Below, in pieces: positions 18,253-39,582 of a DNA stretch of 42,447 bases. Position 1 is the first letter of the stretch. Each line of letters begins with the position of its first letter. The notes under the pieces are model-generated. The model saw only the letters and a list, made by a program, of their open reading frames with translations. It had not been told where the DNA came from and did no database searches. The stretch comes from Planctomycetaceae bacterium (lineage in GTDB: Bacteria; Planctomycetota; Planctomycetia; Planctomycetales; Planctomycetaceae): the NCBI GenBank assembly GCA_002726205.1, contig PBSL01000017.1, forward strand, positions 1 to 42,447, in the 5' to 3' direction. A program made the translations under genes and the position numbers.

Positions 18253-18398
18253 TTGACGAGAGCGATTCCCCTTGGTCGCAGGATAGGCGGCGGAGTATGA
18301 TGAGAGCGCGGTTTGGTGGATCAATCGGGTGTGGTCGGGATTTCCGGCAGTGATCGTCGGCATCCGTTTGCGTGGTGTGTGGAGCAGTGAGACAAATC

Positions 18399-20858
18399 GT
18401 GAGTGAGAGCACTCGGAGTGGACGAACGAGAGTCTCTCTTCCGGTTGTTGGTGTCGTGATCCTGCTGGGTATCGCCACGGTGGTGGCGGCACTGACCGGG
18501 CTGGGACGCCGCGATGCCGGGCCGGGCCGGGTCAATTCGGTGACCATTGACGAATCGGCCGAGGTTGTTGACGACCAGGCGCTGGCGCTTCCCGAGGCAC
18601 AGGCGAAATACCTCCAGGACGCCGAACACCTCGGGGGCTTTGTCTTCGGCGACCTGACTCTGCCGTTGGTCAGTGATGCGATCAGGCAATCGGACCCGGA
18701 GGCACTGCAGTCATTCCTCTCGAGCGAATTTCGGGGTGAAGTGTTCAGCGACAACGGTGGCCGAGGTGCTGCGTTGGGCGTTGCCGATGTCCACACCTGG
18801 AAGACGCCACGTGACATGGTGATGCCGGTCGATCGAGAATCCTTCACCCGGAGTCTGCTGGCGTGGCGAGCGGAATTCTCGAAACTGGAGACAGCATCAC
18901 TGAAAGTCATGCTGATGCGACCCGAGACGCGGGGCAGTTTTGACGGGCCGTGGGTCGGTTCGCTGAAACTGCGACTGGCCGGGACTCGCGACGATGGCCG
19001 AATCGGTGAACGGGTTGTGCGATTCCGCTGCCGATTGACTTCCCTGACCGAGGACCAACCGCAACGTAAGGGGTGGTTGAGTGAGTGCCTGGCCTACGAG
19101 GCGCGATCGAGTCACTCGCAGCAGCGGTTGCTTGAACCGATGCAAGAGAGCACCGGAATCGACGTGGCGCGACTGCACGACAACTGGAAACGAAAGGACA
19201 AGAAGAACCTGCCGTTCTTGACAGGGGGGACCTATCTGGTCGATTACGACCGCGATGGGGTCCTGGATGTCATGGTCACCGACCTGACCGGTGTTTCGTT
19301 GTACCACGGGGAGGGAGCGGGGCGCTTCTCCAACGTGACGCTCGCTGCCGGGTTGCCGCCGCTCTCGGCACCAAACGAGCCGCCCGCGATCGGTGCCGTG
19401 TTTGCCGACTTCGACAACGACGGGTTTCCCGACCTGTTGCTGGGGCCTCGGTTGTACCGCAATGTCGAGGGGGTTCGCTTTGAGCCGTTGATCGTTGCTC
19501 GAGACACGTCGCTGGAACTGGCGAAGGATGCCTCACAATATGCCGTGGCGGATTTCGATCGCGATGGCCTGCTCGATCTGTTCGTCGTCGGCCTGGCCTC
19601 GGGATCTCCTCGGGGACAACCGTGGATCGGCAAGGCCGAGGGTATCAAGAGCCAGTTGTGGAGGAACAAGGGCGGGTGGCAGTTTGAGGACGTGACCGAA
19701 CGCAGCGGAACTGTCGGCCAGGGGGGGCCGACGTTTGCCGCCGTCTGGTTCGATGCCAACCAGGATGGCTGGCCCGACCTGATGACGTCATGCGAGACCG
19801 GCAAGAACGACTACCTGATCAATCAGCAGGACGGGACCTTCCGGCAGGCGAAATTGCCCGACATCTATGGCGGGTTTTCCATGGGGATCACCGCCGGCGA
19901 TATCGACAACGACGGACGTCCCGACATCTATGTCGCCAACATGTACTCCAAGGCCGGCGAACGGATTGTCGACAACCTGCAACGCGGTGCGTATCCGGAT
20001 GACATCGATGCCCAGATGCGGGATTTTGTCTCGGGCAACGAACTTTATCACAACCTCGGGGAAGGGCGTTTTGAACGGGTCGGGCAAGCCACCGGCGTGG
20101 CCGATGTCGGCTGGGCCTATGGGCCGGGTTTTGTCGATCTCGACAACGACGGCTGGCTCGACCTTTACGCTCCGGTGGGATTTCAGAGTGTGACACCCGA
20201 ACGACCCGACGGTTGACGGTGCGTCTGGCTGGCTGTCGTGTCACAGCCGTTCAACAGCAGTGCCCAGGTGCCCTGCCTGCGTGATCTGGATACCGAGAAC
20301 GGGGAATTCTGGGTTTCCAGCCCCTGGAATTTTCCCGCCAGCGGTGAAAATCTCAGTGCCTACGAACGCAACGGAGTCTTTCTCAACGATCGCAAGGGTG
20401 GTTTTCACGACGTCTCGTTTGCCAGTGGTGCCGACAGCCCCGGCGACGGTCGCAGCGCCGTTTCGGGAGACATTACCGGGGACGGAATGCCCGAGCTGTT
20501 CGTGCGGCAGGCCGGAGGCGGTGCCCTGCTCGTCTACCGCAACCGGTTTCCCCGCGTGCACTCGCTGCAATTGAGCCTGCGGGGCACGCGCAGCAACAGC
20601 CTGGGTGTTGGAGCCAGGATCGAGTGCAGGATGGGAAAACGAGTCATCCGCCGCTCGCTGTATCCGGTGGTCAACTTCCTTTCCCAATTGCCGGCGATGG
20701 TGCACCTGGGACTTGGCGATGCGACGCGAATCGACCACTTGACGATTCGGTGGCCGTCCGGAGAGGTCCAGGAGTTTCGGGACGTCCCTGTCGACCGCCA
20801 CATCCGGGTACGCGAAGGAGAGGCCGATTACCGGACTCTCAGGAAGCACCGACACTAG
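18399..20858 (+). CDS. CRTAC1-type FG-GAP/ASPIC-UnbV protein with in-frame TGA (putative selenoprotein)
   Basis: One continuous 819-codon frame broken only by TGA at 20214-20216 (codon 606). N-terminal membrane anchor or signal (about 10-33), a region of about 220 residues possibly NTF2-like, then DxDxDG calcium-type FG-GAP repeats (DYDRDGVLDV, DFDNDGFPDL, DFDRDGLLDL, DANQDGWPDL, DIDNDGRPDI, DLDNDGWLDL). Beyond the TGA are one more repeat and a normal ASPIC/UnbV domain (TRSNSLGVGARI to IRWPSGEVQ), so the downstream part is not decayed. Codon 606 lies 16 residues after a DLY strand; in the paralogues at 29528, 32133 and 36586 a Cys lies 14-15 residues after the equivalent DLY/DLF. Cys608 and Cys626 follow. 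Sec insertion, or a Cys codon changed by one base, both fit. Unaware annotation would give two pieces, to 20216 and from 20238. Start uncertain: GTG 18399 or 18372. Confidence 0.7.
20214..20248 (+). promoter_or_regulatory. In-frame TGA followed by bacterial SECIS-like hairpin
   Basis: After the TGA, GGCTGT (20231-20236) pairs perfectly with ACAGCC (20243-20248) around a six-base loop CGTGTC. A lower part can extend it (a U-G pair, one mismatch, then G-U, G-C and U-A). The loop starts 20 nt after the TGA and has G as its second base. The published bacterial SECIS model asks for a short apical stem-loop within roughly 16-37 nt of the UGA and a G among the first two loop bases, so the geometry fits. 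A 6-bp stem can arise by chance in GC-rich DNA, so this is supportive, not decisive. Confidence 0.5.
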
Positions 20859-21943: not shown

Positions 21944-23140
21944 TCAACGGGCAGGCGTTATTTGTTGACCGGAAGGTTGTGGGACCTGACGGCAGGCGGC
22001 GGCAGCCTGGCGCCACATGACGGCGAGATCGTGTTTTCCGAGTTTTTCGCAGACGGTGGCCAGGCGATCACGGACCTCGGCGTTTTGCGGGTCGCGATTG
22101 GCTTCGAGGTTGAGTTGGGTGAGTTGGGTCTTGAGTTGCCGGGATTCTTCATGGCGGGCGATCTCTCGCTTGTAGTTTTCCGGCTTGCCGATCCGCTGCC
22201 ACGCCTGGGCCAGTTGATATCGGCAGGCCGTGTCGTGAGGGTCGCGAGCCAGCAACTGCTGCAGGGGGGCGATGGTGGACTCGGTGTCATTGCGATCGTT
22301 GGCCAAGGCAACCTGGAGCAAAACGGCCTTCCTTGCATGCGAGTCAATCGCCAGGGAGCGGTCGAGAAATTCTCGTGCCGTGTCGTGCTGGCCGAGTCCA
22401 CGATGGCAGTCTGCCCTCAGCGCGAGGACGAGAGCGTTCTCCTGATCGGCCACGTCCAGGATTTTCAGGGCGGCCGGATAATTGTTCTGCCCGATCAGGG
22501 ATTGAGCGAGATTTCTGAGGACTTCCTGATGGATGCTTGCAGGAATCGTTTCAGGGCGTTTCCGGGCGAGTGCCTTGCGGTAATGGTCGACCGAGACCTT
22601 GAAATCCTCGAAATCAAAGGCCATGTGACCGATCAGTGCGTGGGCGAGATAATTGTCGGGTTCGTATTCGAGCAGTTTCTCGAGATGTGTCACCGCGCCG
22701 TCGAATGCGCCGAGATTGTAGAAGATCTGCCCGAGCCATCGATGCGATTCGGCGGAGGCAGGGTCATCTTTGAGCAATTCCTGAAATTGTGCTGCCGCGA
22801 GTGGAAGTTGGTGCAGCAGGAAAAGGCATTCCCCGGTCAAGCGAAGAGCCGGTTGCCGCAGTTGGCCTTGGGGAACCACGCTCTTGAAGGACGGCAGAGC
22901 CGCCGCAGGGTCACCGCGACGCAGCAGGTAGCCACCTCGCAACAGGTGCACGTGTGAGTCGTAGCCGGGTTGATCCTGCAGGGATTCGATCCCCTGCAAC
23001 ACGGTTTCCAGGTCGCCGTCGTCGAGAGCTTTCAGGCTGTTGCTGAAGACGGCGCCAGGACGCGGTTGTAGGAAACTCCAGGTGATCACCACCAGGGCAG
23101 CCGAGACCAGCACGGGCAGAATCAGACGGTTCCGGGTCAT
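21944..23140 (-). CDS. Membrane-anchored TPR protein
   Basis: 398 aa. One N-terminal membrane segment (about 6-22, LILPVLVSAALVVITW), then TPR repeats over nearly the whole length (for example DPASAESHRWLGQIFYNLGA, FDGAVTHLEKLLEYEPDN, GQHDTAREFLDRSLAID, GKHDLAVMWRQAA). It probably sits in the periplasm or intracytoplasmic space as a protein-interaction scaffold. It starts 10 bp after the stop of the FG-GAP/heme gene at 23151-24782, so the two are very likely co-translated and may bind each other. Start ATG 23140 places the membrane segment at the N-terminus. Confidence 0.82.
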   Translation of the reverse strand: MTRNRLILPVLVSAALVVITWSFLQPRPGAVFSNSLKALDDGDLETVLQGIESLQDQPGYDSHVHLLRGGYLLRRGDPAAALPSFKSVVPQGQLRQPALRLTGECLFLLHQLPLAAAQFQELLKDDPASAESHRWLGQIFYNLGAFDGAVTHLEKLLEYEPDNYLAHALIGHMAFDFEDFKVSVDHYRKALARKRPETIPASIHQEVLRNLAQSLIGQNNYPAALKILDVADQENALVLALRADCHRGLGQHDTAREFLDRSLAIDSHARKAVLLQVALANDRNDTESTIAPLQQLLARDPHDTACRYQLAQAWQRIGKPENYKREIARHEESRQLKTQLTQLNLEANRDPQNAEVRDRLATVCEKLGKHDLAVMWRQAAAACRQVPQPSGQQITPAR

Positions 23141-23150
23141 GAGCCACAGT

Positions 23151-24782
23151 CTAGCGACGGGTGTTTTGCCAGAATTCCACCGGACTGGACGAACGCGACT
23201 TGGTGTTGTTGCCGACGAAGATGTCAATATCTCCGTCACTGTCGGCGTCACCAACGGTCAATGTGGGATGATTGCACAGGTGGGATTCAAGGGCCCGTGG
23301 GCGAAACTTGCCGGGATGAACCTGCTCGATCCAGAGGATCGAGGGGACCTTCAATGTCTGAAGCAGAGTGTCGCGGTTGCCGTCTTTTTGTTCAGCGACG
23401 AAGCCGGCGGCAATCACATCGAGGTCGCCGTCGTCGTCGATGTCACAGGCTTCGGCCCGGTGAACACCGTAAAGTCGGGCAAGAGTGTGCTCCCGAAAGT
23501 TCAGTCCCCCGGTATTCTCGAGCCACCGCACGCCGTGACCGGGTTTCAACTGGGCATCATCCATCGTGTCACCGTTGGTGACCAACGCATCGACATCACC
23601 GTCCTGGTCGAGATCGACCAGTTGCAGGCCTGAGGAACCCCAGCTGGGATGCGGTGCCTGGTAGAGCGTGTGCGCCTCGAACGTGAGTGAACCCTTGTTC
23701 ATGAACGCGACGACCGCTTCGTGCTCCTGTGCAATCAGGGCCAGGAAATCGAGCCTGCCGTCGCCGTCGAGATCAATGGGAGGAGTGTGAATCGTTCCGT
23801 GGCGTTGGTCGAGGACCTTCAGCCGATAGCTGGATCGGACCGGAGGGCCGGCTTGCCCGGTGTGTTCCAGCAACAGGACGCGACCGGTGCGTCTCCAGCC
23901 GAACTCGGCAACAACCAGATCCAGGTCACCGTCGCCATCAAAATCAGCTGCCCTGGCGTCGGCCACACGACTCAGGGAATCGGCGAGGACAACCGGGCGA
24001 AACGTCCTGTCGGACTGCTGTTGCAGCCAGGTGACGGTCCCCAGGTTGTGGTCGATCGCAGTGAAAGAGCCGAGATCGGCAACGAGCAGGTCGCGCAGTC
24101 CGTCCTGGTCGAGATCGACAACCTGGATTCGTGCCGGGTGTCCCACGCGGGCAACTCGAGTCAGCGGGACGTCGGATTTGTCCGGATGGCCAACGAATAT
24201 CAGGCCGTTTCTCATGTCGCAGGCGATCAACTCGAGTCGACCGTCACGCTCCTCGGCCACCAGGTCGGCCAGTTGGACATTCGATATCACGATGTCACGG
24301 TCAGTCCGGGTGGGGAAACTCCACTTGCTGACACGAAACTCCAGCGAACCACGGTCAATCGTGTCATCGAGAACGGGCAAGGTCAGCGATTTCGGGGCGC
24401 GGGCGATGAACCAGTTGACGACGGCCTCGGGGTTGACGTATTGGCGAACCTTGTTGCCGTAACCAGGCATTGTGACCATCTTGCTGACCCGATCACGCCA
24501 TTCGGATTGCGGAAGGATGTCGGGCTCGGTGAACTTGTGGCACTGGCTGCACAGCTTGCGGACGGTCTCCTCGTCAACCGAATTTTGTGCCGCGGCACGG
24601 GGCCGGCCGCTACTGGTGTCGCTGGAATTCCCGCCACAACCGACAGCGATCGAAATGATCAGGCTGGCAGAAAGCACCAGCAATGCCGGACACAACGCAT
24701 CGTCGGCCACCGGGGGTGTTGGCCGCAAAGGGCCTGCTGAGGAGGCATCGTTGGCGGTCAAGGCAAACCCCGGAATTGACAT
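23151..24782 (-). CDS. FG-GAP (VCBS) repeat lipoprotein with N-terminal c-type heme site
   Basis: 543 aa. Signal with lipobox-like SIAVGC (Cys49), a linker, then a heme c attachment site CSQCH (Cys78, Cys81, His82) in a short cytochrome-like segment of about 100 residues (LCSQCHKFTEPDILPQSEW resembles planctomycete mono-heme cytochrome c domains), then at least six FG-GAP repeats with calcium-type loops (DLDQDGLRDL, DFDGDGDLDL, DLDGDGRLDF, DLDQDGDVDA, DIDDDGDLDV, DADSDGDIDI), predicted to form a beta-propeller. No ASPIC/UnbV domain. It would be exported and could transfer electrons. First gene of a probable operon with the TPR and membrane proteins downstream. The hairpin at 24828-24852 lies in its leader. 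ATG 24782; the N-terminus before the signal is long, so a later start is possible. Confidence 0.85.
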   Translation of the reverse strand: MSIPGFALTANDASSAGPLRPTPPVADDALCPALLVLSASLIISIAVGCGGNSSDTSSGRPRAAAQNSVDEETVRKLCSQCHKFTEPDILPQSEWRDRVSKMVTMPGYGNKVRQYVNPEAVVNWFIARAPKSLTLPVLDDTIDRGSLEFRVSKWSFPTRTDRDIVISNVQLADLVAEERDGRLELIACDMRNGLIFVGHPDKSDVPLTRVARVGHPARIQVVDLDQDGLRDLLVADLGSFTAIDHNLGTVTWLQQQSDRTFRPVVLADSLSRVADARAADFDGDGDLDLVVAEFGWRRTGRVLLLEHTGQAGPPVRSSYRLKVLDQRHGTIHTPPIDLDGDGRLDFLALIAQEHEAVVAFMNKGSLTFEAHTLYQAPHPSWGSSGLQLVDLDQDGDVDALVTNGDTMDDAQLKPGHGVRWLENTGGLNFREHTLARLYGVHRAEACDIDDDGDLDVIAAGFVAEQKDGNRDTLLQTLKVPSILWIEQVHPGKFRPRALESHLCNHPTLTVGDADSDGDIDIFVGNNTKSRSSSPVEFWQNTRR

Positions 24783-28552: not shown

Positions 28553-29510
28553 CCAGCGGCCACCGGAGTCGCCGTCGGACCCGCCGCAGACTGCAGGAGA
28601 GGCCGAGCGGGTGGCCAGCAGTTTTACGCCAGGGCAGAAGGCGAGCACGATGAGCAAGGTGCTGGTGATTCTCTTCACCAGCCTGCTGGTCATCGGCGGC
28701 ATGTACGTCGCCAGTCCCGACAGCGCCTCGGATCTGTTGGTCAATACTCGCGTGGGGTTTGACCAGGAGGTCAACCGCAACCTGGTTCTTGGTTACATGA
28801 CCCCGTTCCTGGCGCCGGGCGTGACCCGACCGACACTCAAAGCCGCGGAAGAGACCCGGTTCGCCGAGGCAACCCCGATCGTTGGTGTTGCTGTCGGGAA
28901 AATTCATCGGGCCTATCCGACGCTGGTGATGCAGGGGTTTCGGCCCGACGGGATCTACGGTGGGATTGTCAACGACACGCTGGACGGAGTCCTGGTCACG
29001 GTGACCCATGACATTGACGCCAAGTTGGTCCGCGTGTTCACCCCGGCCGAGAAGATTGAAGGGAAAGTGGGCCGTCTTCGTCTGGCCGGCATGGCCGATG
29101 GGGGCGCCCTGATGTTGACCTTCAACGACAAGGACTACTACAGGCAGGATGCTCGGTCGGTTCCATCGCTGAAGGACTATCTGTTCAAGGAAGTGACCTG
29201 GGGCGAATGGAAGTCAGCTCATCCCGACACGGACGTGTACGTGGGGACGTTTCGGACGCCGGATCTGCAGATGGAAGTTTCGCTGGCCTTCATGACGCCC
29301 AGGGAACGGGCCGTCGCCGAAAAGGTGATCGCCAAACGCAACCGCGATGCCAAGATTCTCTCGCCCAACCGCAAGAAACGCCGAACTCCGATGGTTTCGG
29401 CCGCCGCCGCTTCTTCAACACCGGGTGCGACGGACAAGAAGTCGAGTGGTCAGAAACAGGGTTCCGAGAGTGGGTCGGCCGCAAAGTCGGCGACACCAGC
29501 GACCGAGTAA
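28536..29510 (+). CDS. DUF3179-like membrane-anchored protein lacking the usual Cys motif
   Basis: 324 aa. One membrane segment (about 41-60, VLVILFTSLLVIGGMYVA), then a domain resembling DUF3179: TPIVGVAVGKIHRAYPTLVM, GGIVNDTLDGVLVTVTHD, a middle beta-rich part, and WGEWKSAHPDTDVY, which matches the W.xW....P.t.V end of that family. In typical DUF3179 proteins the VNDT strand is followed by a Cys-containing TYCPLCGS-like motif; here that place reads VTVTHDIDAKLV, with no Cys. The tail is Lys/Ser/Ala-rich. Two adjacent ATGs (28536, 28539). It sits between a TPR gene and an ASPIC/UnbV gene with overlaps or short gaps, suggesting a three-gene unit. The family call is from pattern memory. Confidence 0.65.
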   Translation: MMEDHDQRPPESPSDPPQTAGEAERVASSFTPGQKASTMSKVLVILFTSLLVIGGMYVASPDSASDLLVNTRVGFDQEVNRNLVLGYMTPFLAPGVTRPTLKAAEETRFAEATPIVGVAVGKIHRAYPTLVMQGFRPDGIYGGIVNDTLDGVLVTVTHDIDAKLVRVFTPAEKIEGKVGRLRLAGMADGGALMLTFNDKDYYRQDARSVPSLKDYLFKEVTWGEWKSAHPDTDVYVGTFRTPDLQMEVSLAFMTPRERAVAEKVIAKRNRDAKILSPNRKKRRTPMVSAAAASSTPGATDKKSSGQKQGSESGSAAKSATPATE

Positions 29511-29516
29511 TCGGGG

Positions 29517-29524
29517 AAGGGGAG
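29517..29524 (+). promoter_or_regulatory. Ribosome binding site for a TTG start
   Basis: AAGGGGAG ends 3 nt before TTG 29528, between the stop of the previous gene (29510) and the start of the signal peptide. It supports the TTG over upstream in-frame ATGs, which would lie inside the previous gene. Confidence 0.55.
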
Positions 29525-29527
29525 AAG

Positions 29528-31315
29528 TTGCTCCGGCTCCGAAACATCCATGCGGCACGAGCGGTTTCTGCCCTGGTGTTGCTGCTGGTTGCCGTGGTGG
29601 GTTGCCCATCGGACGATCCGGTTCCCGGTGGGTCGGCCGGGAGTGGGGCGCCATCGAAACGTCCCCCGGTCACTTTCCCGCCGGCGAACGAGGATGTGCG
29701 ATCGGCGACGGGAGTTGAGTTTTACGATCGTGCCGCCACCGCCGGCGTGGCCTTCAGTTATCGTAACGGCCAGGAGGCCGGGTATTTTTCGATCGTCGAG
29801 TCACTGGGTGGGGGCGTCGGCCTGCTCGATTGGGATCGCGACGGCGACCTCGACCTGCTGATTCCCGGTGGAGGCCGGTTCGGCAAGGACGACACGATCG
29901 CCGGTCGTCCCTGCGGATTGTTCCTCAACCAGGGGGAGTGGGACTTTCTGTCGGTGGCCGAGCAGGCCGGGGCGTCGACAATTTCCAAGAGGTATTCGCA
30001 CGGAGCTGCCGTTGGCGACTTCGATGCCGATGGTTTCCCGGACGTGTTGGTGACCGGCTACGGGGGCGTGGTTCTGTGGCACAATCTTGGAGACGGGACC
30101 TTCGAGGACACAACGGTTGCCGCCGGGTTGAATGACCGGCTTTGGAGCTCCTCGTCGGCCTGGGGTGATCTCAACGGCGACGGACACCTCGATCTCTACA
30201 TCGCCCACTATGTCGACTGGAGTTTCAAGAACAATCCCATCTGCCCGTCCAAGAAGACCGGTGAGCAGGACATCTGTCCGCCTCGCCAGTTTGATCCCCT
30301 TCCCGACACGTTGTACCTCAGTCGCGGGGACGGCTCGTTTGAAGACGCATCGGTCGTGGCGGGCCTGGTCCAGCAGGGAGCCTGCGGCAAGGGGCTGGGC
30401 GTGATGATCTGCGACATCGACCTGGACGGTGCCCTGGACATTTATGTCTGCAACGACACCGTGCCGAATTTTCTGTACCGCAATGACGGTCGTGGGCGAC
30501 TCGAGGAAGTGGCGATGCAGAGCGGGGCGGCGGTCAGCGAAACCGGTGTGCCGGAAGGAAGCATGGGCGTTGATCTTGGCGACTACAACCTCGACGGCCG
30601 CCTGGACCTGTGGGTGACGAATTACGAACGAGAGAGCATTGCCCTGTACCGCAACGACGGTCGCGGGATGTTTCGGCATGTCAGCCACCTGGCCGGGCTG
30701 ACGACAGTGGGTGGGTTGTTCGTCGGCTGGGGCACGGCGTTCCTGGACTTTGACCTGGATGGTGACGAGGACGTGTTCGTCAGCAACGGTCATGTGATCA
30801 GGCACCCCAGCGAGGCGCCGTTGCGCCAGTTGCCGCTGTTGTTCGAGAACATGAAGGGTCGCCGATTCTTGAATGTGGCACCGGCGGGGGGGGACTACCT
30901 GTCGAGTCCGCACATGGGCCGCGGCGTGGCCAAGGGCGATCTCGATAACGACGGGGATATCGACCTGGTCGTGTGTCACACCAACGAGCCGGTGGCGTTG
31001 CTTGAAAATCGATCGCCCCGTGGGAACCGTCACTGGTTGGGCGTGCGGTTGGTGGGCACGCAGCCGCAAACCGCCCGTGACCCGGCAGGTGCCATCGTGA
31101 CGGTCAGCGTCGAAGGGCTCCCCAAACAAACCCGGCAACTCAAGAGTGGAAGCAGTTACGCGTCCAGCAGCGAACCGCGGCTTTGTTTCGGTCTGGGAAC
31201 GGCCGGGTCAGTTGCCGAGGTCGAGATTCGCTGGCCGGGCGGGACGATTCAGCGAACCGGGCCGGTGAAGGCCGACCAGTTGCTGGTCGTTCGCCAGGAA
31301 CATCGGCGGCGGTGA
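29528..31315 (+). CDS. CRTAC1-type FG-GAP/ASPIC-UnbV lipoprotein
   Basis: 595 aa. Signal with lipobox-like VAVVGC (Cys26). Then the CRTAC1 family core from GVEFYDRAATAGVAFSY onward: FG-GAP repeats with calcium-type loops (DWDRDGDLDL, DFDADGFPDV, DLNGDGHLDL, DIDLDGALDI, DYNLDGRLDL, DFDLDGDEDV, DLDNDGDIDL) and a C-terminal ASPIC/UnbV domain (HWLGVRLVG to IRWPGGTIQ). A Cys pair, Cys239 and Cys250, lies in a loop between two blades and is shared with the paralogues at 32133 and 36586; it is probably a disulfide. Exported and lipid-anchored, calcium-binding; partner unknown. Starts 17 bp after the DUF3179-like gene. Confidence 0.88.
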   Translation: MLRLRNIHAARAVSALVLLLVAVVGCPSDDPVPGGSAGSGAPSKRPPVTFPPANEDVRSATGVEFYDRAATAGVAFSYRNGQEAGYFSIVESLGGGVGLLDWDRDGDLDLLIPGGGRFGKDDTIAGRPCGLFLNQGEWDFLSVAEQAGASTISKRYSHGAAVGDFDADGFPDVLVTGYGGVVLWHNLGDGTFEDTTVAAGLNDRLWSSSSAWGDLNGDGHLDLYIAHYVDWSFKNNPICPSKKTGEQDICPPRQFDPLPDTLYLSRGDGSFEDASVVAGLVQQGACGKGLGVMICDIDLDGALDIYVCNDTVPNFLYRNDGRGRLEEVAMQSGAAVSETGVPEGSMGVDLGDYNLDGRLDLWVTNYERESIALYRNDGRGMFRHVSHLAGLTTVGGLFVGWGTAFLDFDLDGDEDVFVSNGHVIRHPSEAPLRQLPLLFENMKGRRFLNVAPAGGDYLSSPHMGRGVAKGDLDNDGDIDLVVCHTNEPVALLENRSPRGNRHWLGVRLVGTQPQTARDPAGAIVTVSVEGLPKQTRQLKSGSSYASSSEPRLCFGLGTAGSVAEVEIRWPGGTIQRTGPVKADQLLVVRQEHRRR

Positions 31316-32132: not shown

Positions 32133-34043
32133 TTATTCCCGGGATCCGGAAGTTCCCGTCCCGCGGCGGAGCGACAACTGGCGGTCGGCCGGCCCACCAG
32201 GGAACGTCTCCCAGGCAGAATCCCCGTCGGGCCAACGAACCTCGATCCTGTCGTAATGGGGCCTGTCGAGCCCGACGTGGATCCTGGGGTCATGGCTGGC
32301 GAGATAACTGCCGGCCGGGTTCAGGATCCGGTGGTGTCGGAAGTTGCCGGCAACGACAACGATCTCGGCACCGTAGGCATCGCGGCGATGAGCGGGATCG
32401 ATCGCCCGGAGTTTCAGCCAGTGCCCGCGCTTGGGCAGGTCGTTGCGATAGAGCCGGGCGCGGCCGCCGGTCGTGGTGACCAGCAGGTCGATGTCTCCGT
32501 CATTGTCGATGTCGCCACAGATCAACGCACGACCGGAATTCGGCTCGCGGCTGAAATCACCGGCGTCCATCGTGCGTTCGACGAAGATGTTCTTTCCGGT
32601 GTTGAGAAAGATCTGGTTGCGGTCGCCGTATTCCTTCCAGAAAGCGACCGGGTCGTCGACCTTGTCCTTGCCCTGCTGGAGCAGCTTGTCGACTTCGATG
32701 ATGTCGCCCTGGCGGTCCGCATCGCTGCTGCGCCAATGGCAGGGCAAGGCCAACCCATTAACGAGCGGGATGTCGAGGAAACCGTCGTGGTCGAGATCAA
32801 CGAAGCTGACCCCCCAGCCGGTGTGTCGTCGGCTGGCCAGTCCGAGTTGCCATTGCTCGGTCGCATCGCGAAACTCGCCACGGTCGTTGATGTAGAGCGT
32901 GTTGGTCTCGTCGGTGAAGTGGGTCGAGAGCAGGTCCCAGTCGCCGTCGGCATCAACATCGCCCAGGGCCAGGCCCATGCTCGCCTCACCACGTCCCAGG
33001 AAGTTGTAGGCCGATCCGCTCTGCAGGCCACGGTCGATGAAGGTGCCATCTTTCTGGTTGATCCAGAGGCGATTGGGGTACATGTCGTTGGCCACATAGA
33101 AATCCGTCCAGCCATCGCGGTCGAAGTCGGCGCAGACGACACAGAAACCGGTTCCACGGGTTTCGGCCAGTCCGGCCTCCGAGGTCACGTCACGGAACCG
33201 AACCACGCCGTCGGGTCCCGGCCCCTCGTTGTGCAACAGGACGTCGGCCGAGGCATTGAATTCCAACGGAGAACAATAGCCAACATGGTCACCACCATAG
33301 TCACAGGCCCTCATGTGGCCGTCGAAGGCCTCGGCTCCGTATTGCGTCAGGAACAAGTCCAGGTGGCCGTCGCGATCGTAGTCACAGAAAGTCGCTGATG
33401 TCGCCCAGCCGTCGGTCGCCAGCCCAGCCGCCTCGGTCACGTCGCGGAAGTGCCCCTGGCCGTCGTTGAGGTACAGCCGGTCCCGACCGTAGTTGGTGAC
33501 AAACACGTCGGCATGGCCGTCGTTGTTGGCATCGCCGATGGCACAACCGATCCCGTACCCCTTGTCGCCCAGCCCCGATTCGGCGGTCGCGTCGGTGAAG
33601 CGGCCATCCTCTTCCTGTCGAAACAGCCGGTTCTCGAGTCGTGATGGGGCCGGCAGAGGTCCGACAGCCTTGGGCGAACGGCCGCTGTTGACCAGGTAGA
33701 TGTCCAGGTCACCGTCACCGTCGTAGTCGAACATCGCGCCACCAGAGCCGTTGATCTCGGGAAGAAAATATGTCCCCAGCGGTCCAATCACGCGATGAAA
33801 ATCCAGGCCGGAGGCGTCGGTGATGTCGGTGAAGAAACCACGAGCTGTCGCAGTGGCGTCCGGACCGGTCCAGTTGCCCGGGCCACAATTTCGGGTCGCG
33901 TCGGTGGTGGCAACTCCCGGCACCACGTTGTTCCCGGGCACGTCGTTGGTGCTGTCACATCCCCCCGGAGCCAGGGCGATCACCAGCAGGGTCAGGCAGC
34001 CCAATACCCGGGGCCCGGGCTTCTGGGAGGCAAGAGGTGCCAT
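32133..34043 (-). CDS. CRTAC1-type FG-GAP/ASPIC-UnbV protein
   Basis: 636 aa. Signal region ending LAPGGC (Cys29; only a loose lipobox), an Asn/Asp-rich linker, then GLDFHRVIGPLG as in CRTAC1 proteins, FG-GAP repeats (DYDGDGDLDI, DANNDGHADV, DYDRDGHLDL, DFDRDGWTDF, DVDADGDWDL, DLDHDGFLDI, DIDNDGDIDL) and a C-terminal ASPIC/UnbV domain (HWLKLRAID to VRWPDG). Cys pair Cys247/Cys257 lies in the same inter-blade loop as in its paralogues. ATG 34043 is preferred to the upstream TTG 34091 because it puts the signal at the N-terminus. It is 74 bp after the YfhO-like gene in a probable operon with that gene and the TPR-FG-GAP fusion. Confidence 0.88.
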   Translation of the reverse strand: MAPLASQKPGPRVLGCLTLLVIALAPGGCDSTNDVPGNNVVPGVATTDATRNCGPGNWTGPDATATARGFFTDITDASGLDFHRVIGPLGTYFLPEINGSGGAMFDYDGDGDLDIYLVNSGRSPKAVGPLPAPSRLENRLFRQEEDGRFTDATAESGLGDKGYGIGCAIGDANNDGHADVFVTNYGRDRLYLNDGQGHFRDVTEAAGLATDGWATSATFCDYDRDGHLDLFLTQYGAEAFDGHMRACDYGGDHVGYCSPLEFNASADVLLHNEGPGPDGVVRFRDVTSEAGLAETRGTGFCVVCADFDRDGWTDFYVANDMYPNRLWINQKDGTFIDRGLQSGSAYNFLGRGEASMGLALGDVDADGDWDLLSTHFTDETNTLYINDRGEFRDATEQWQLGLASRRHTGWGVSFVDLDHDGFLDIPLVNGLALPCHWRSSDADRQGDIIEVDKLLQQGKDKVDDPVAFWKEYGDRNQIFLNTGKNIFVERTMDAGDFSREPNSGRALICGDIDNDGDIDLLVTTTGGRARLYRNDLPKRGHWLKLRAIDPAHRRDAYGAEIVVVAGNFRHHRILNPAGSYLASHDPRIHVGLDRPHYDRIEVRWPDGDSAWETFPGGPADRQLSLRRGTGTSGSRE

Positions 34044-34117
34044 GTCGCGTTCCGGTGGTCGTGGGACGATGAAACTCAGTCGGGCAGGCAACAGTTATTG
34101 CCAGCAGCAATTCTAGA

Positions 34118-36589
34118 TCAGGACGGTGTGGGGCGGGAAGACGCCGATGGGTCTCGAGAGGAAATCAGCAGGGCGATCCAGAGCCCGCTCCACAGCAGCA
34201 ACGCGGTAAGAGTAATCTGTCGTCCTCTGCGGTGCGCGTCGGATTCGAATCGAAAACGCACTGTCCAGTCGCCCCTGGCGGGAATGCGGACCAGTCGCCA
34301 GCGGCCCCAGGCGGTCTCGACCGGTGTCGGCTCGAACCCGCCGGCGTTCTGCCGGCGACTGGCCGTCCAGCCCGGGTAGGACTGGTCGGCCAGCATCACG
34401 ACCCCGGCGGTGTCGCAGCGGAGGGAAATCTCGACGGTCTCGCCATGGTCAACAACCTCGGTGACCGGGAAAGGCCCAGGCGCTGACGTGGACCGAATCG
34501 GCGGCGGCAGTCGCCCGAGTGCCGGGTCGTTGCCGGGTGAGGCCAGGGCGGCCAGCGGGATGAACCAGGCGCGGGCGGAGGGCATTGTCGGAGGTAGGCT
34601 CCAGAGAGTGAATCGACTGGCAACGGGGACGAGAGTGGGCCGGGGTCCGGGTTGGTAGGCGGCCAGTGAGAGGTCGCTGAAGGTGCCCTCGGACCGCAAC
34701 GGGCCGGTTCGCAGTGGCGGTGTGGACAGTGAATCGACAAGCAATCCCGACACGCCAGACCACTGCATCAGTCGCAGGTCGTCGGGCCCGGCTCGGTCCG
34801 GCATCCGGGAGAGCAGAACGCCCAGCGAGTCGTTTCGTGAGGGAGGTGGCAGGGGGGACCAGTCACTGGGCCAGGCGTGCCACGACGTGGTCCCGGGAAC
34901 CTGCTCTCGCGTCCAGTAGCGGTTGATCTCGGGCAATCCCGCCCGGGAAAAAGCCGAGAGCCCGGTTGCCATGGGCAGACGGTCGAGTTGACTGATGATC
35001 CGCCGGCCGGGGTCACGAGCCAGCCTCTGCAGCAACGGGCTGTCGACGGCGGGAGCGTAGTCCCGGCTGGTGAAATCAAGCGGCCGCAACAGCTGCGCCG
35101 AGAGTCCCAGGTCGACGGCCACCAGTACAAAGGCCACCGCGGGCAGACGTGATATGTGCCGGACCGGCCAGGAAGAGATCCCGGCCAGGCCCAGCCCCAT
35201 CAGCACAAACAACGGTCCGGCCAGCCCCGTCGTCAAGATCCGTCGCAGGTCGGTTGCGGGTGCCGGAGTTGGCGGTTGCAGTGCGGCGGAGGCGATTCCG
35301 CCTTGCAGCAACGCTGAGCGTTGTCCGGAGTCCGCAGACCGGTAATAGGCCTCGGATTCACTCATGACCGAAACCAGCATGTAGGTTGTCAGCCCGATTG
35401 TGATCATCGCGCCGAGACTGTAGCGCTGACACCAGTTGGTGACCCGGGCGCTGCTGAGACGTTCCAGTCCCAGACCGGCCAGCAATCCCCACCACAGGCC
35501 AGCCACAAGGCTCCATCGTCCGGGGGCTGGAAAACTGTCGAAACCGGGGAGCCGGGTCAGGAAAACAAACCCGGGGGCAAACCGGCCCAGGCTCAACAGG
35601 AGGGCGACCAGCAGCAGCACCGCCCACAGCCGCGACCGGCGGTCTTCGGTGACGGCGCACAGCCCGAGTATGGCCAGTCCGACAGTGATCAGCCCGACAT
35701 ACGGCAGGGTTTCTGTCGCCGATGATTGCCACGGTGCCCAGGCCGCTGCTTCCCAGAGCGGATTGGCATGAAACAGCCAGGGCATCAGGTGTCCGGCCAG
35801 CAGGTGCCAGGGCGGGGTCGAGTGAGAGGCCAGAAACGGAAAGCCCCGGCCCCGACTGTCACCGACAATCGCCAGTTCTGCGGAAGGCAGCAACTGGGCG
35901 GCTGCCAACGCTGCTCCCCCAGCCAGGGCGGCGACGAGACCGATCAACTGCCAGGACCATCCCTGTCGGGGTGTGGACGCTGCGATCCGGTGTCCGATGG
36001 TCAGCAACAACAGGGTTCCCCACGTCATCCATGCGACCTGGAAATGACCGGCGGTTGCCTGGACACCCAGGACGGCCGCCAGGGTCAGCAACCAGCGGTA
36101 CGAACGCTTTTCAAGCCACTGCCAGCAGGCATGTACCGCCAGCGGCAACCAGCAGGCGGTGACGGCGGCCCAGCCCCGATCGGCATGGGCTACGAAGAAA
36201 CCCTGGCCGGCAAAGACAATTCCGGTCAAAAGGCTGGACCACTGGTTCAATCCAAAGCCTCTGGCGCAGAGCCGGGCAAACACCGCGGCAGCCAGCGTGT
36301 GCAGCACCAGCAGAAGCGTCCAGGCTCTCGCCGGGTCAAGGAGTCGATAGAAGATCTGGTGAGGAGGGTAGTAGACACCCATCTCGGCGGAGGCGACCGT
36401 TGGTGTTCCCTCGCCGTCCAGCGGGTTCCATTCCGGAATGCGGCCCTCGCCGAGTGCCTTGGAATAGTAACTGGCCAGGGGCAGGGCGTGGATGTCGACC
36501 GAGGTACTCGCGGCACGTTGCCCGAGCAGGACCGGCCAGAACCAGGCCAGGATTACCGGGAGCAGCAGCCAGGCGGGTGAACGTTTCAC
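34118..36589 (-). CDS. YfhO-like polytopic membrane protein (GT-C-type glycosyltransferase candidate)
   Basis: 823 aa. About 11-13 membrane segments in the first 500 residues, beginning at residue 5, then a soluble, beta-rich C-terminal half and a last membrane helix near the end. Near the N-terminus the acidic loop DIHALPLASYYSKALGEGRIPEWNPLDGEG, followed by GVYYPPH, resembles the first extracytoplasmic loop of YfhO/GT-C proteins; in that family they are thought to transfer sugars from a lipid carrier outside the membrane (for example YfhO on teichoic acids). Acceptor and sugar are unknown here. GTG start at 36589 overlaps the stop of the TPR-FG-GAP gene as GTGA, so translation is coupled. 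The polyprenyl-phosphate glycosyltransferase at 10658-11395 could supply a donor, but this is speculative. Confidence 0.8.
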   Translation of the reverse strand: MKRSPAWLLLPVILAWFWPVLLGQRAASTSVDIHALPLASYYSKALGEGRIPEWNPLDGEGTPTVASAEMGVYYPPHQIFYRLLDPARAWTLLLVLHTLAAAVFARLCARGFGLNQWSSLLTGIVFAGQGFFVAHADRGWAAVTACWLPLAVHACWQWLEKRSYRWLLTLAAVLGVQATAGHFQVAWMTWGTLLLLTIGHRIAASTPRQGWSWQLIGLVAALAGGAALAAAQLLPSAELAIVGDSRGRGFPFLASHSTPPWHLLAGHLMPWLFHANPLWEAAAWAPWQSSATETLPYVGLITVGLAILGLCAVTEDRRSRLWAVLLLVALLLSLGRFAPGFVFLTRLPGFDSFPAPGRWSLVAGLWWGLLAGLGLERLSSARVTNWCQRYSLGAMITIGLTTYMLVSVMSESEAYYRSADSGQRSALLQGGIASAALQPPTPAPATDLRRILTTGLAGPLFVLMGLGLAGISSWPVRHISRLPAVAFVLVAVDLGLSAQLLRPLDFTSRDYAPAVDSPLLQRLARDPGRRIISQLDRLPMATGLSAFSRAGLPEINRYWTREQVPGTTSWHAWPSDWSPLPPPSRNDSLGVLLSRMPDRAGPDDLRLMQWSGVSGLLVDSLSTPPLRTGPLRSEGTFSDLSLAAYQPGPRPTLVPVASRFTLWSLPPTMPSARAWFIPLAALASPGNDPALGRLPPPIRSTSAPGPFPVTEVVDHGETVEISLRCDTAGVVMLADQSYPGWTASRRQNAGGFEPTPVETAWGRWRLVRIPARGDWTVRFRFESDAHRRGRQITLTALLLWSGLWIALLISSRDPSASSRPTPS

Positions 36590-39582
36590 CGTGGAACCCG
36601 AGCCGGCTGGCGGCCTTCGACGAGGATCAACTCGCAGTCGATTGGCACCGTGTCGAAACGGTCGCGACGTCCCGAGGGCCAGTGGATCTCCAGCGGCCCG
36701 ACCGTCTTCGCCGAACCTGTGCCGAAAATCAACTGCCGCTGGTTGCTGGCCATGTAGCCGTCGCCGGCGGTCTGTTGCCGGTAGAGACGTTTGTCGCCGA
36801 CATGCAGCGTGGCCCGGGTCCCGATCGCGTCGCGGGCCGATGCCGTGGCCCGCAGTCGCAGCGCCACGTAGTGGCCGTGGGTTGGAGACGTGCAGGTCAG
36901 TAATGCCAGCGGGGCGTCGATGTGAGAGATCACGACGTCGTCGAGACCGTCGCGGTTCCAGTCGAGTCGTGCCATGCCGCGTCCCAGGGCATGTTGGCTG
37001 AAGAAGGAACCCAGCCGTTTGGCGGGCAGTTCCACGAACCGTCCCTGTCCGGTGTTGTGCAGGTACTGGGTCGGCATCTGGAAGAGCGTGTCCTGTTCGG
37101 GGAACTGGCCCACGTGACCGTTGGTGACAACCAGGTCGATCTGGCCGTCGAGGTCGGCATCGACAAACTGGGTGCCCCAGCCCAGCAGCCCGACGCTGCT
37201 CTCGAACAACCCGGCTCGCTGTGTGATGTCGGCAAAGAACTCTTGTTCGGCCAACTTGCGGTACAGCGTGTTTGACTGGTTGAGAAAATTCGTCACGTAG
37301 AGATCGATGCGGCCGTCGCCGTCGGCATCACCGCTGGCCACTCCCATGCAGGCCTCGGATCGTCCGTCCTGGTTGACCGCCAGTCCCAGCGGCAACGCGC
37401 GTTCACGAAATCTGGGAATGCCGTCGGCACCCTGGCCCTGGTGGACGAAGAAGAAGTTGGGCACCGAGTCGTTGGCGAGAAAGAGATTCAGGCGGCCGTT
37501 ACCGGAAAAGTCGGCGGCGACGATTCCCAGCCCGTTGCCCCGGGGAACCTGGATGCCCGATTCGGCGGTGATCTCGCGGAAGCGACCGTCTCCCAGATTC
37601 AGGTAGAGCTGATCCTGGGCCGAGGGGAAGTCCAGCGGGCTGCAATTGCCGGAGCGCATCGCCGGGGGCGCATTGCCGGCCTCCGGCTGCAGTGGTTCGG
37701 TCGGGACAGGAGAACGGATCCGGTTGCATTCCTGGGTGAAGACGTCCTTTCCCGAGAGAAAATTCGCGGCGTAGAGGTCGGGCAGGCCGTCGTTGTTGAG
37801 ATCGGCAAGCAGGCAACTGGTCGTCCAGCGGTCACCGGAGATTCCGGCCGGCCCGGAGATGTCGGTGTAGGTGCCGTCGCCGTTATTGTGATACAGGCGA
37901 TTGCCCCCGATGTTGGCCACGAGCAGGTCGGGAAAACCATCACCGTTGATGTCGCCGACGGCCTGACCCTGGCCGAATCCGTTGCTGACGAGGCCGGCCT
38001 GGAGGGTGACATCTTCGAAGCGACCGGCTCCGGTGTTGCGAAACAGGCGATCGAGGTGTGTGGATTGGCGGTTTCTATCGGAAAACTCGCCCCCCTGGGG
38101 CAGGAACAGGTCCGGCCAGCCGTCGAGGTCGAAGTCGATCGCGGCAGCACCTCCACCGGTCATCTGGTACATGTACCTGGGACCGGACAGGTTCGGATCG
38201 CCGCCGCAGAAATATCGGAAAGCGATCCCGGCGGGCTGAGCCCGGTCTTCGAAACGAACCTGGACCCCCGGCAACTCCCGTGGCAGGCGACTGTTGTTTG
38301 CGATCCGTGCCGACCAGTCCGGGAGCGGCAGGTCGCTCAGGTCGATGGTCGCCACCGGGTTGGCCGAGGCGAGGGTTCGTGCCGGTTCGAGCGAGTCCAG
38401 TCCGGGTCCGAGTCGTCGCAGCGCCTGTTGAGCCCAGCGCTGAGTCGTGTCCTGCTGTGTGACCCACTGTGACCAACCGAAAGCTTCCCAGACGAGGCCA
38501 AGCTCCTCGGCGAGACTCACGACGAGCTTCATGTCACCGGTTCGCTGGGTGGCGTTGGCGGCGGCGATACGGGTCGTGTAACGGTTGATCTTGCGCGAAC
38601 GGTCCAGGAACGGGGTGGCTTGCGACGGGCGGCCGAGCTGGGTGAGTACCTGTCCGAGCTGGTAGTTGGCCTGGTGATGATTGGGGTCCCTGCGCACCGC
38701 CTCCCAGAAGCAGCGGGCGGCGACTTCGGGTTGGGCGTGTTCAGCGGCGAAGCGGCCCCAGTTATTCCAGATGCCCGGGTGTCGCCTTGCGGTGTCCGGG
38801 AGGTCGGCATGCCAGGCGAGAAATCCGCCGTCGTCGCCGGCCTGCAGGAGAGTCGACCCCAGGAGGACACGGGCCTCGAGCAGGTCGGGATTCGTCTTGA
38901 TCGCCGTGCGGAGGTGGGCCTCGGCCCGGGGAAGGTCCCGGTCACCCAGGGCCAGCCAGGCCATCGAGATCAGCGGTCCCGGGTCGGCGGGGTCGGCGTC
39001 GTGGAAGAGTTGAATGATCTCGGGATCGACGAGGCTGCCGTCGCCGGCGGCGAGGATCTTCAGGTGCAGCGGGTTGAAATTGTCCTGTCGGCAGATCCTG
39101 ATCCGGTAAGAAATCGATTCCCAGTTGCGAGAAGCGACCGCGAGCAGGTAGGCGAGTCGGTCGTTGGCAATGCGGTGCGCGGAGGCCTGTTGCAGGGCGC
39201 GTCGGAACTGCTCTTCGGCAGCCGACATCCGGTGCTGACGGCTCAGCAGGATGTCGCCGGCCGCACAACGGGCCGCAATGGCCGTGGCCGTACCGTCATC
39301 GGGGATCGTCGCCAGCAGTTGCAGCGCCCGTGGGTTGTCGCGGAGTCCCGACGCAGCACGGCCGGCCAGCAGGATGCCGGGATGCCAGCCGGGATCCCTG
39401 GCCAGGATCGAACGGGCCCAGGAATCGGCGTCGTGGAATTCGAGATCGTCGAGAGCCTGTTGGCCGAAACGCAGTTCCAATCGTGAACGTGCTGTCCACG
39501 CCACGGCCGCAGCGGCCACCAGCACCAGGGCCAGGGTCGTGAGCAACCATCTGTAGGACCGCGGGCGAGCGGCATCGGGCAT
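36586..39582 (-). CDS. TPR domain fused to CRTAC1-type FG-GAP/ASPIC-UnbV protein
   Basis: 998 aa. A membrane anchor or uncleaved signal at about 11-30 and TPR repeats at about 35-420 (AEEQFRRALQQA, RAEAHLRTAIKTNPDLLEARVLLG, AARCFWEAVRRDPNHHQANYQLG). After about 440 come FG-GAP blades (DFDLDGWPDL, DINGDGFPDL, DLNNDGLPDL, DADGDGRIDL, DADLDGQIDL, DWNRDGLDDV) and an ASPIC/UnbV domain (about 890-985, HGHYVALRLRATA to IHWPSGRR). Cys619 and Cys647 match the inter-blade Cys pair of the paralogues. One blade reads DFSGNGRLNL, a degenerate calcium loop. Exported with the TPR and propeller outside the cytoplasm. Couples by GTGA overlap to the YfhO-like gene. The divergent gene at 39756 encodes an SGNH hydrolase. 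Confidence 0.9.
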   Translation of the reverse strand: MPDAARPRSYRWLLTTLALVLVAAAAVAWTARSRLELRFGQQALDDLEFHDADSWARSILARDPGWHPGILLAGRAASGLRDNPRALQLLATIPDDGTATAIAARCAAGDILLSRQHRMSAAEEQFRRALQQASAHRIANDRLAYLLAVASRNWESISYRIRICRQDNFNPLHLKILAAGDGSLVDPEIIQLFHDADPADPGPLISMAWLALGDRDLPRAEAHLRTAIKTNPDLLEARVLLGSTLLQAGDDGGFLAWHADLPDTARRHPGIWNNWGRFAAEHAQPEVAARCFWEAVRRDPNHHQANYQLGQVLTQLGRPSQATPFLDRSRKINRYTTRIAAANATQRTGDMKLVVSLAEELGLVWEAFGWSQWVTQQDTTQRWAQQALRRLGPGLDSLEPARTLASANPVATIDLSDLPLPDWSARIANNSRLPRELPGVQVRFEDRAQPAGIAFRYFCGGDPNLSGPRYMYQMTGGGAAAIDFDLDGWPDLFLPQGGEFSDRNRQSTHLDRLFRNTGAGRFEDVTLQAGLVSNGFGQGQAVGDINGDGFPDLLVANIGGNRLYHNNGDGTYTDISGPAGISGDRWTTSCLLADLNNDGLPDLYAANFLSGKDVFTQECNRIRSPVPTEPLQPEAGNAPPAMRSGNCSPLDFPSAQDQLYLNLGDGRFREITAESGIQVPRGNGLGIVAADFSGNGRLNLFLANDSVPNFFFVHQGQGADGIPRFRERALPLGLAVNQDGRSEACMGVASGDADGDGRIDLYVTNFLNQSNTLYRKLAEQEFFADITQRAGLFESSVGLLGWGTQFVDADLDGQIDLVVTNGHVGQFPEQDTLFQMPTQYLHNTGQGRFVELPAKRLGSFFSQHALGRGMARLDWNRDGLDDVVISHIDAPLALLTCTSPTHGHYVALRLRATASARDAIGTRATLHVGDKRLYRQQTAGDGYMASNQRQLIFGTGSAKTVGPLEIHWPSGRRDRFDTVPIDCELILVEGRQPARVPR

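Follow-up and report, generated by a model that had tools for sequence, protein, structure and literature searches.

A candidate selenoprotein family built on CRTAC1-type propellers in Planctomycetota, Verrucomicrobiota and Acidobacteriota

A CRTAC1-type FG-GAP gene from a member of the Planctomycetaceae contains an in-frame TGA that is almost certainly read as selenocysteine (Sec, U). The gene lies at 18399-20858 on the forward strand of contig PBSL01000017.1 (assembly GCA_002726205.1), within an analyzed stretch of 42,447 nucleotides that we call the window, and the TGA occupies positions 20214-20216. That this residue is Sec, with a redox role as its likeliest use, is a highly probable reading, drawn from the UGA column and its exchange with Cys, a conserved selenocysteine insertion sequence (SECIS) hairpin, the sel genes, the domain architecture and the joint absence of Sec and a CxxC motif (x, any residue). 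With somewhat more confidence than doubt, we further propose that the gene belongs to an undescribed and very widespread family of envelope selenoproteins, often multi-copy and found in many Planctomycetota, Verrucomicrobiota and Acidobacteriota, in which a propeller selenol and a thiol in cis (a UxC motif or a fused TlpA-type thioredoxin) would constitute a new kind of extracytoplasmic reductase, and in which selenol and thioredoxin thiols were lost together in redox-dead members.

Apart from the TGA, which is codon 606, the frame is open throughout and ends in TAG. The original prediction had described a continuous frame with a well-formed ASPIC/UnbV domain beyond the TGA, and both the frame and a Pfam match at residues 736-802, C-terminal to the TGA, agree with it; the translation likewise places the TGA as the 16th residue past a DLY, with Cys608 and Cys626 downstream, as had been stated. 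FG-GAP_3, FG-GAP and UnbV_ASPIC all scored over their curated Pfam cut-offs, giving the order of FG-GAP repeats followed by ASPIC/UnbV that characterizes CRTAC1 / ASPIC-UnbV proteins, and NCBIfam returned a single match for the window protein, under its curated cut-off. The parts of the gene are:

18399..20858, forward strand: proposed selenoprotein gene encoding 819 residues when TGA is counted as Sec; the start is taken to be GTG, with a GTG at 18372 also possible; TAG stop.
18429..18500, forward strand: hydrophobic N-terminal stretch, residues 11-34, a likely membrane anchor or signal judged by eye from the translation.
20085..20435, forward strand: final blade of the propeller, carrying the Sec insertion; this domain of about 117 residues (563-679) defines the family and is matched by profile A2 at 151.5 bits.
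20214..20216, forward strand: TGA, codon 606, almost certainly read as selenocysteine, from the frame and the census of the homologue column.
20220..20222, forward strand: TGC, Cys608, second residue of UxC and proposed resolving thiol, from the translation and the motif count in class 1.
20231..20248, forward strand: putative SECIS hairpin with a 6-bp stem (20231-20236 / 20243-20248) and loop CGUGUC (20237-20242), from a fixed-position pairing test, covariation and bacterial SECIS geometry.
20604..20804, forward strand: ASPIC/UnbV domain (PF07593), from a Pfam match; made only upon readthrough of the TGA.

A structure model of the window protein had murine CRTAC1 (9etn_A) as its best Foldseek match (E 2.1e-24). 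The model of a sister protein from Terriglobia (L231) reached a predicted local distance difference test score (pLDDT) of 91.5 and a predicted template modeling score of 0.93, and in it Sec is predicted at residue 431, where an inserted helix of the propeller part (430-441) begins. The propeller and ASPIC part of L231 superposed on 9etn_A with Z 37.2 and a root-mean-square deviation of 2.2 over 455 residues, and its C-terminal domain is TlpA/ResA-like by fold (TlpA 4txv, E 6.2e-9).

We next consider the residue that homologues carry at the position of the TGA. A profile built from 14 members (A2) matched 102 of 392 Planctomycetota genomes at E 1e-12, and among the matches listed each had either no stop or exactly one TGA. 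Loci were read from a part of these rows: all 20 listed stop-free rows and, among those with TGA, 20 of the best plus 59 more. Across the 143 loci read, with all stops masked, the 120 in-domain stops were all TGA and all fell in one column, with TAG and TAA at zero. Dropping 16 repeats of the same stretch left 127 distinct loci, in which the codon at this column was TGA in 104, TGC in 13, GAG in 4, AAT in 3, CGC in 2 and GAC in 1. A search of named records, using only the sequence after the Sec codon as query and covering the best 80 of at least 556 confirmed relatives (a sample leaning towards Sec members), gave 79 loci, of which 78 carried TGA and one TGC (L271, Phycisphaerales, in the same context, DLCSFFWRQVVS). 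Grouped by record title, which was checked for three names, these came from Planctomycetota, Verrucomicrobiota (e.g. Roseibacillus) and Acidobacteriota (e.g. Bryobacterales, Thermoanaerobaculia), with one record titled Proteobacteria and two without a group. At L271:5998-6000, TGC stands for TGA, the SECIS-like stem is complete and the genome has selB, which looks like a recent Sec/Cys switch. One further genome (G171) held ten matches to the Sec-domain profile, so the family can be multi-copy.

This recurrence bears on the possibility that the gene is a pseudogene or contains a sequencing or assembly error. A single base converts TGC or TGT to TGA, the window hairpin taken alone is not significant, and the original prediction had held that mutation or sequencing error explained the alignment equally well. 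That parity did not survive the census: the same codon recurs in one column of more than 100 loci, both distinct and named, where a sequencing error cannot repeat, and sequencing error is thereby excluded. The source genome itself has four such TGA genes, and conserved sequence continues in frame past the TGA. We regard a pseudogene or error as exceedingly improbable.

The anticipated alternation of Cys and TGA at codon 606 was present (Cys in 13 and TGA in 104 of 127 loci), but the column was not confined to these two, as the prediction had required: E, N, R or D occurred in 10 of 127 loci, and A, G, N, S or Q in eight from Acidobacteriota. The latter came from a search of that phylum, to which G434 (Bryobacterales) belongs, in which 24 of 119 genomes matched at 1e-15 and yielded 32 rows, 24 with one TGA and eight without a stop. 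Among the 20 rows read, 12 had TGA in one column and the eight stop-free loci had A, G, A, N, S, Q, S and G, all within the setting [DE][LI]xSFFWR[QK]V. A tree built without the Sec column, on few columns and with many weak forks, placed the Cys members in one group (98% by the Shimodaira-Hasegawa-like approximate likelihood-ratio test), joined by Sec members L185 and L191 (96%), which share a local motif with them (PDY-U-T next to DYC-T). The N and R members fell together and the E and D members elsewhere, such that five residue changes suffice. We read the ten E/N/R/D loci as members that probably gave up the site, because those with E or D have a thioredoxin lacking CxxC, those with N or R are short and lack the domain, and all occupy few places in the tree.

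Downstream of the TGA, the window carries the hairpin GGCTGT-CGTGTC-ACAGCC (20231-20248), whose loop lies 20 nt past the TGA with G at loop position 2, bearing out the bacterial SECIS geometry that had been predicted. The bacterial SECIS (bSECIS) model specifies a loop of 3-9 nt, a stem of 4-16 bp, a G in the first two loop positions, a spacing of 16-37 nt and a minimum free energy of at most -7.5 (PMC13188914); the window has a loop of 6, a stem of 6, G and then U at loop positions 2 and 3, a spacing of 20, and folding energies of -7.8 for the bare hairpin and -15.2 over 45 nt. Relative to synonymous recodings, generic folding of the window gave z 0.0, and the case for a functional hairpin is one made by comparison of homologues, not by the energy of the window.

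For this comparison the TGA loci were divided into class 1, which has the motif PDG-U-xC (24 loci; stem nucleotides 17-22 with 29-34, the T of TGA being 0), and class 2 (80 loci, of which 78 were used after two with unclear bases were dropped; stem nucleotides 14-19 with 25-30). At these fixed positions class 1 formed 142 of 144 pairs, versus 84.5 +/- 4.1 (maximum 100) in 2000 synonymous recodings, and class 2 formed 432 of 468, versus 261.2 +/- 8.9 (maximum 287). The 23 non-Sec homologues showed a small excess in the class-1 register (57/138 vs 47.2 +/- 3.3, maximum 60) and none in the class-2 register (53/138 vs 52.1 +/- 3.2), and not one of the 23 paired all six positions in either. When registers were exchanged, class 1 showed no excess (62/144 vs 60.2) and class 2 retained one (204/468 vs 144.0 +/- 6.6), as overlapping stems would give. 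Taken as groups, both TGA classes also folded more stably than expected (mean z -1.07 and -1.34, vs +0.15 for the 23 non-Sec loci; p 4e-8); because four E-coded loci likewise folded at mean z -0.96, we place the weight on the fixed-position test.

Covariation points the same way. Two-sided pair changes occupied 10 cells in class 1 and 40 in class 2 (74 of the 80 loci aligned, six near copies or loci with unclear bases left out), numbers reached by 0/500 shuffles in each class; the covariation score was likewise reached by 0/500, and sliding the partner lowered both. In one compensating example, VSQP becomes VSRP (CAG to CGG) together with a silent GCT to GCC, and the pair is kept. Among the named TGA loci, 73 of 78 form all six pairs and the other five form five. 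In nearly all loci, the second base of the loop is G and the third U, and the loop lies 20 nt past the TGA in class 1 and 17 nt in class 2, fitting the bSECIS model; the class-2 loop presumably resembles that of the E. coli fdhF SECIS.

The source genome (4.86 Mb, 96% complete, 76 contigs) encodes all four components of the Sec machinery whose presence the prediction had left to be checked. On contig C76, selB (353.9 bits) adjoins selA (510.4 bits); a tRNA-Sec on C63 scores 69.6 bits against a cut-off of 47 and is called by ARAGORN as tRNA-SeC with anticodon tca (UCA); and selD (347 bits) has one in-frame TGA of its own. The context of that TGA, CAG-U-AGKLPQ, marks selD (G000:C13:116990-117913, L274) as probably a selenoprotein gene itself, and it is followed by the hairpin CCGCAC-AGGTC-GTGCGG (loop AGGTC); as read from sequence, this TGA and hairpin are an internal positive control. 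The genome has 16 ASPIC matches, 15 over cut-off, and four family genes with TGA at the same column: the window gene and those on C57 and C49, which read PDG-U-RC-VWLAVVSQP twice and PDG-U-TC-LWRAVVSQP once, and a fourth on C44, NDL-U-SFFWRQVVSRS. In the proposed mechanism, SelB and Sec-tRNA(UCA) would bind the hairpin 20 nt past the UGA, and Sec would be inserted without termination.

Two other accounts of the open frame were weighed. A reassigned or leaky UGA, decoded as Trp, Gly or some other amino acid or simply read through without Sec, would agree with the frame being open past the TGA. However, among 103 open stretches at least 300 codons long in the loci taken from this genome, not every one of them a gene, 70 end in TGA, which so looks like an ordinary stop here; the in-domain TGA occurs in one column only, with TAG and TAA nowhere; Cys is the residue of the largest exchanged clade; and the SECIS stem is kept beyond what the codons need. 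We consider such decoding very unlikely. The second account is that translation stops at 20216 and restarts at the GTG at 20238, so that propeller and ASPIC are made as separate fragments, and an open reading frame with that start does exist (20238-20858). Yet neither TAA nor TAG replaces TGA in any listed row or read locus, Cys and other sense codons stand at the same place in an unbroken frame, and a stop with restart needs no SECIS geometry, which makes two separate products highly improbable too.

If the TGA encodes Sec, family members with it should reside in genomes with SelB, and the distribution of selB largely follows. The comparison covered genomes with listed rows, on which the TGA and Cys classes rest; 24 of the 102 matching genomes had none listed. 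Of 74 genomes with a TGA member, 67 had a selB over the curated cut-off (the source genome, G006, G018, G030, G034 and 62 of 69 others), versus one of the seven for which Cys members alone were listed (Fisher p 3.4e-5). The Cys-only genome with selB was G133; G283, G153, G303, G227, G062 and G014 were without it. One of the seven TGA-member genomes under the cut-off, G008, has its selB in two parts on different contigs, covering model positions 1-133 and 156-576. G385 and G291, whose only rows carry E or D at the column, have selB, and three added genomes, G154, G161 and G105, were under the cut-off. Within one family, selB was found in 4/5 relatives with TGA members (G008 being the fifth) versus 11/35 without, a difference that was not significant (p 0.056).

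The likely function of the Sec residue is suggested by its thiol partners. We searched for a thioredoxin-type motif by regular expression (W or F, 1-4 residues, then CxxC, more than 180 residues after Sec). In class 1, UxC was present in 23 of 24 loci and the thioredoxin-type CxxC in none; in class 2, UxC was absent from all 80 loci and CxxC was found in 20 of the 22 long enough to tell. The named class-2 loci, 60 of which had long frames and were kept (of 64 entered and 79 named), agreed: 58 of 60 (59 Sec, one Cys) carried CxxC, 257-301 residues past Sec, and one of the two lacking it ends at a contig end. The C-terminal domain of class 2 matched AhpC-TSA (PF00578) over the Pfam cut-off in all three proteins tested, and for one class-2 protein (L063), none of the 25 NCBIfam families listed, of 33, was at its cut-off. 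The window protein had no thioredoxin domain by Pfam at E 0.01 and no thioredoxin-type CxxC after Sec. The family therefore has two architectures, UxC without a thioredoxin, as in the window gene, and U without a nearby Cys but with a fused TlpA-type thioredoxin.

Members without Sec or Cys have no CxxC. It was absent from all ten E, D, N and R members, those with N and R being short and without the thioredoxin domain, and in Acidobacteriota it was present in 10/10 class-2 Sec members and 0/8 non-Sec members. When 13 non-Sec proteins (E, D or other) were compared with a Sec sister, 12 aligned across the thioredoxin active site and none had CxxC, with one Cys left in some. Such joint loss of two sites 250-300 residues apart is expected if the thioredoxin re-reduces the selenol. 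The eight apparently redox-dead Acidobacteriota loci, L276-L283, have A, G, N, S or Q for Sec; seven show a thioredoxin without CxxC, and the alignment of L283 ends before it.

We propose that the protein comprises an N-terminal anchor, a CRTAC1-type FG-GAP propeller, one Sec in an insertion of the last blade, and ASPIC/UnbV. The selenol would act as a catalytic redox group reducing an extracytoplasmic substrate, possibly held by the propeller, and would be re-reduced through a selenenyl-sulfide with Cys608 in the window gene or with the fused thioredoxin in sister proteins. A location outside the cytoplasm is suggested by the hydrophobic N-terminal stretch and the relationship to TlpA.

Several observations weigh against this reading. 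In thirteen Cys members both a CxC and a fused CxxC are missing, so the partner rule fails there and these proteins must use another thiol or other chemistry; they (L115-L119, L121-L123, L126, L127, L038, L057 and L064) share DYC[ST]x[FY]W..., and five have a second Cys five residues on. Some members hold E, D, N, R, A, G, S or Q at the column, which means that Sec or Cys is not needed for the fold, and L271 carries Cys although its genome has selB. No selB was found in six genomes with TGA members (G118, G329, G393, G317, G276 and G201; 55 to 90% complete), and 5 of 16 named genomes were under the selB cut-off, with 11 over it. The window model is poor around Sec, with pLDDT below 50 at 397-455. 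As for the hairpin, a fold downstream of the TGA had been proposed for checking against a SECIS model: geometry and energy limit agree, but by energy the window sequence alone does not beat its shuffles (z -0.72), 44 of 200 of which fold as well. In two paralogues from the source genome, L029 and L030, the fold of lowest energy differs from the conserved hairpin. Two of five covariation measures are weak: 15 and 9 of 500 shuffles had at least as many pairs with two-sided change (3/6 and 4/6), and in pair types the loci did not surpass shuffles (455 and 183 of 500).

Some of these points would suit a true selenoprotein in which Sec is a metal ligand or structural selenol instead of a redox catalyst. 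FG-GAP propellers bind calcium, E, D or N at the column are possible for metal ligands, and the 13 Cys members lack either kind of thiol partner seen with Sec. Set against this, UxC or a fused CxxC goes with Sec, and members without Sec or Cys are also without CxxC, even where the thioredoxin domain is kept; we therefore judge a purely metal-binding or structural Sec unlikely, though deserving of more weight than a decoding artifact. A redox role for Sec with a thiol in cis is likely, a confidence that we lowered slightly because of the Cys members with neither partner, and we give chemistry of the reductase or peroxidase type about even odds.

SELENBP1 (selenium-binding protein / methanethiol oxidase) is a beta-propeller linked with selenium; to our knowledge, it has no FG-GAP or ASPIC domain and no UGA-encoded Sec, which sets it apart by description. 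The closest fold is that of CRTAC1 / ASPIC-UnbV proteins (PF07593 with FG-GAP; murine CRTAC1, 9etn), which share the propeller and ASPIC; the window family differs from them by the Sec insertion of its last blade and by the thioredoxin fused to class-2 members. The likeness to TlpA and ResA oxidoreductases (4txv, 1st9) resides in the class-2 C-terminal domain, which is absent from the window gene and in class 2 is an appendix of the Sec propeller. Catalogued selenoproteins with thiol partners include the thioredoxin-like selenoprotein Sec.2 (UxC) and the UGC-containing TlpA family (PMC13188914 Table 1). These likewise have a UGA with a bSECIS, Sec near a Cys or thioredoxin, and a redox motif; in contrast, their Sec motif lies inside a thioredoxin-like domain, whereas here a beta-propeller carries the Sec, and any thioredoxin domain present retains CxxC.

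FG-GAP, ASPIC/UnbV, CRTAC1 and VCBS appear neither among the 119 prokaryotic selenoprotein families of that 2026 catalogue nor in its main text. FG-GAP, ASPIC, CRTAC1 and VCBS are also absent from the main text of a review (PMC9312934) and a method paper (PMC12013277), and FG-GAP from that of PMC5029168. Literature searches combining selenoprotein or selenocysteine with UnbV, CRTAC1 or FG-GAP gave nothing on topic by titles and the starts of abstracts, in a scope outside which bioRxiv and most subscription journals fell. Selenoproteins have been reported in two planctomycetes (PMC4807772), and the family looks undescribed, with the reservation that S9 Table of that paper may hold an ASPIC candidate. 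Judged by its genes, it is a new selenoprotein family in a fold without an entry in the 119-family catalogue. Because such genes are likely annotated as broken or as two open reading frames, a large selenoprotein family could go unseen. If our reading is true, many of these bacteria may use selenium mainly for this family, which would suggest why Planctomycetota, Verrucomicrobiota and Acidobacteriota use Sec. The family would also provide a first testable chemistry for ASPIC/UnbV propeller proteins, a selenol with a thiol partner, and a natural experiment with Sec, Cys and redox-dead members in one family, the last without thioredoxin thiols.

Elsewhere in the window, three further FG-GAP/ASPIC genes lack the Sec insertion (29207-31315, forward; 32133-34091 and 36586-39582, reverse), one of them with TPR repeats. 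The original prediction had aligned the TGA with a Cys in each of these paralogues (Cys239, Cys247 and Cys619), a claim that stood in one case: Cys619 of the 36586-39582 protein is brought to the Sec column by a weak local match scoring 16.4 bits, in an earlier blade, not the last. The other two gave no local match reaching the column, all three are gapped there in a whole-length alignment of the four proteins, and no Cys occurs at 239 or 247 with the open reading frame starts used here. As evidence for Sec, the comparison within the window is weak; the true Cys homologues sit in other genomes. An 823-codon open frame (34118-36589, reverse) without a Pfam match at E 1e-5 adjoins one ASPIC gene, and genes for a TPR protein and an FG-GAP protein lie near the selenoprotein gene on the opposite strand (21944-23254 and 23151-24782).

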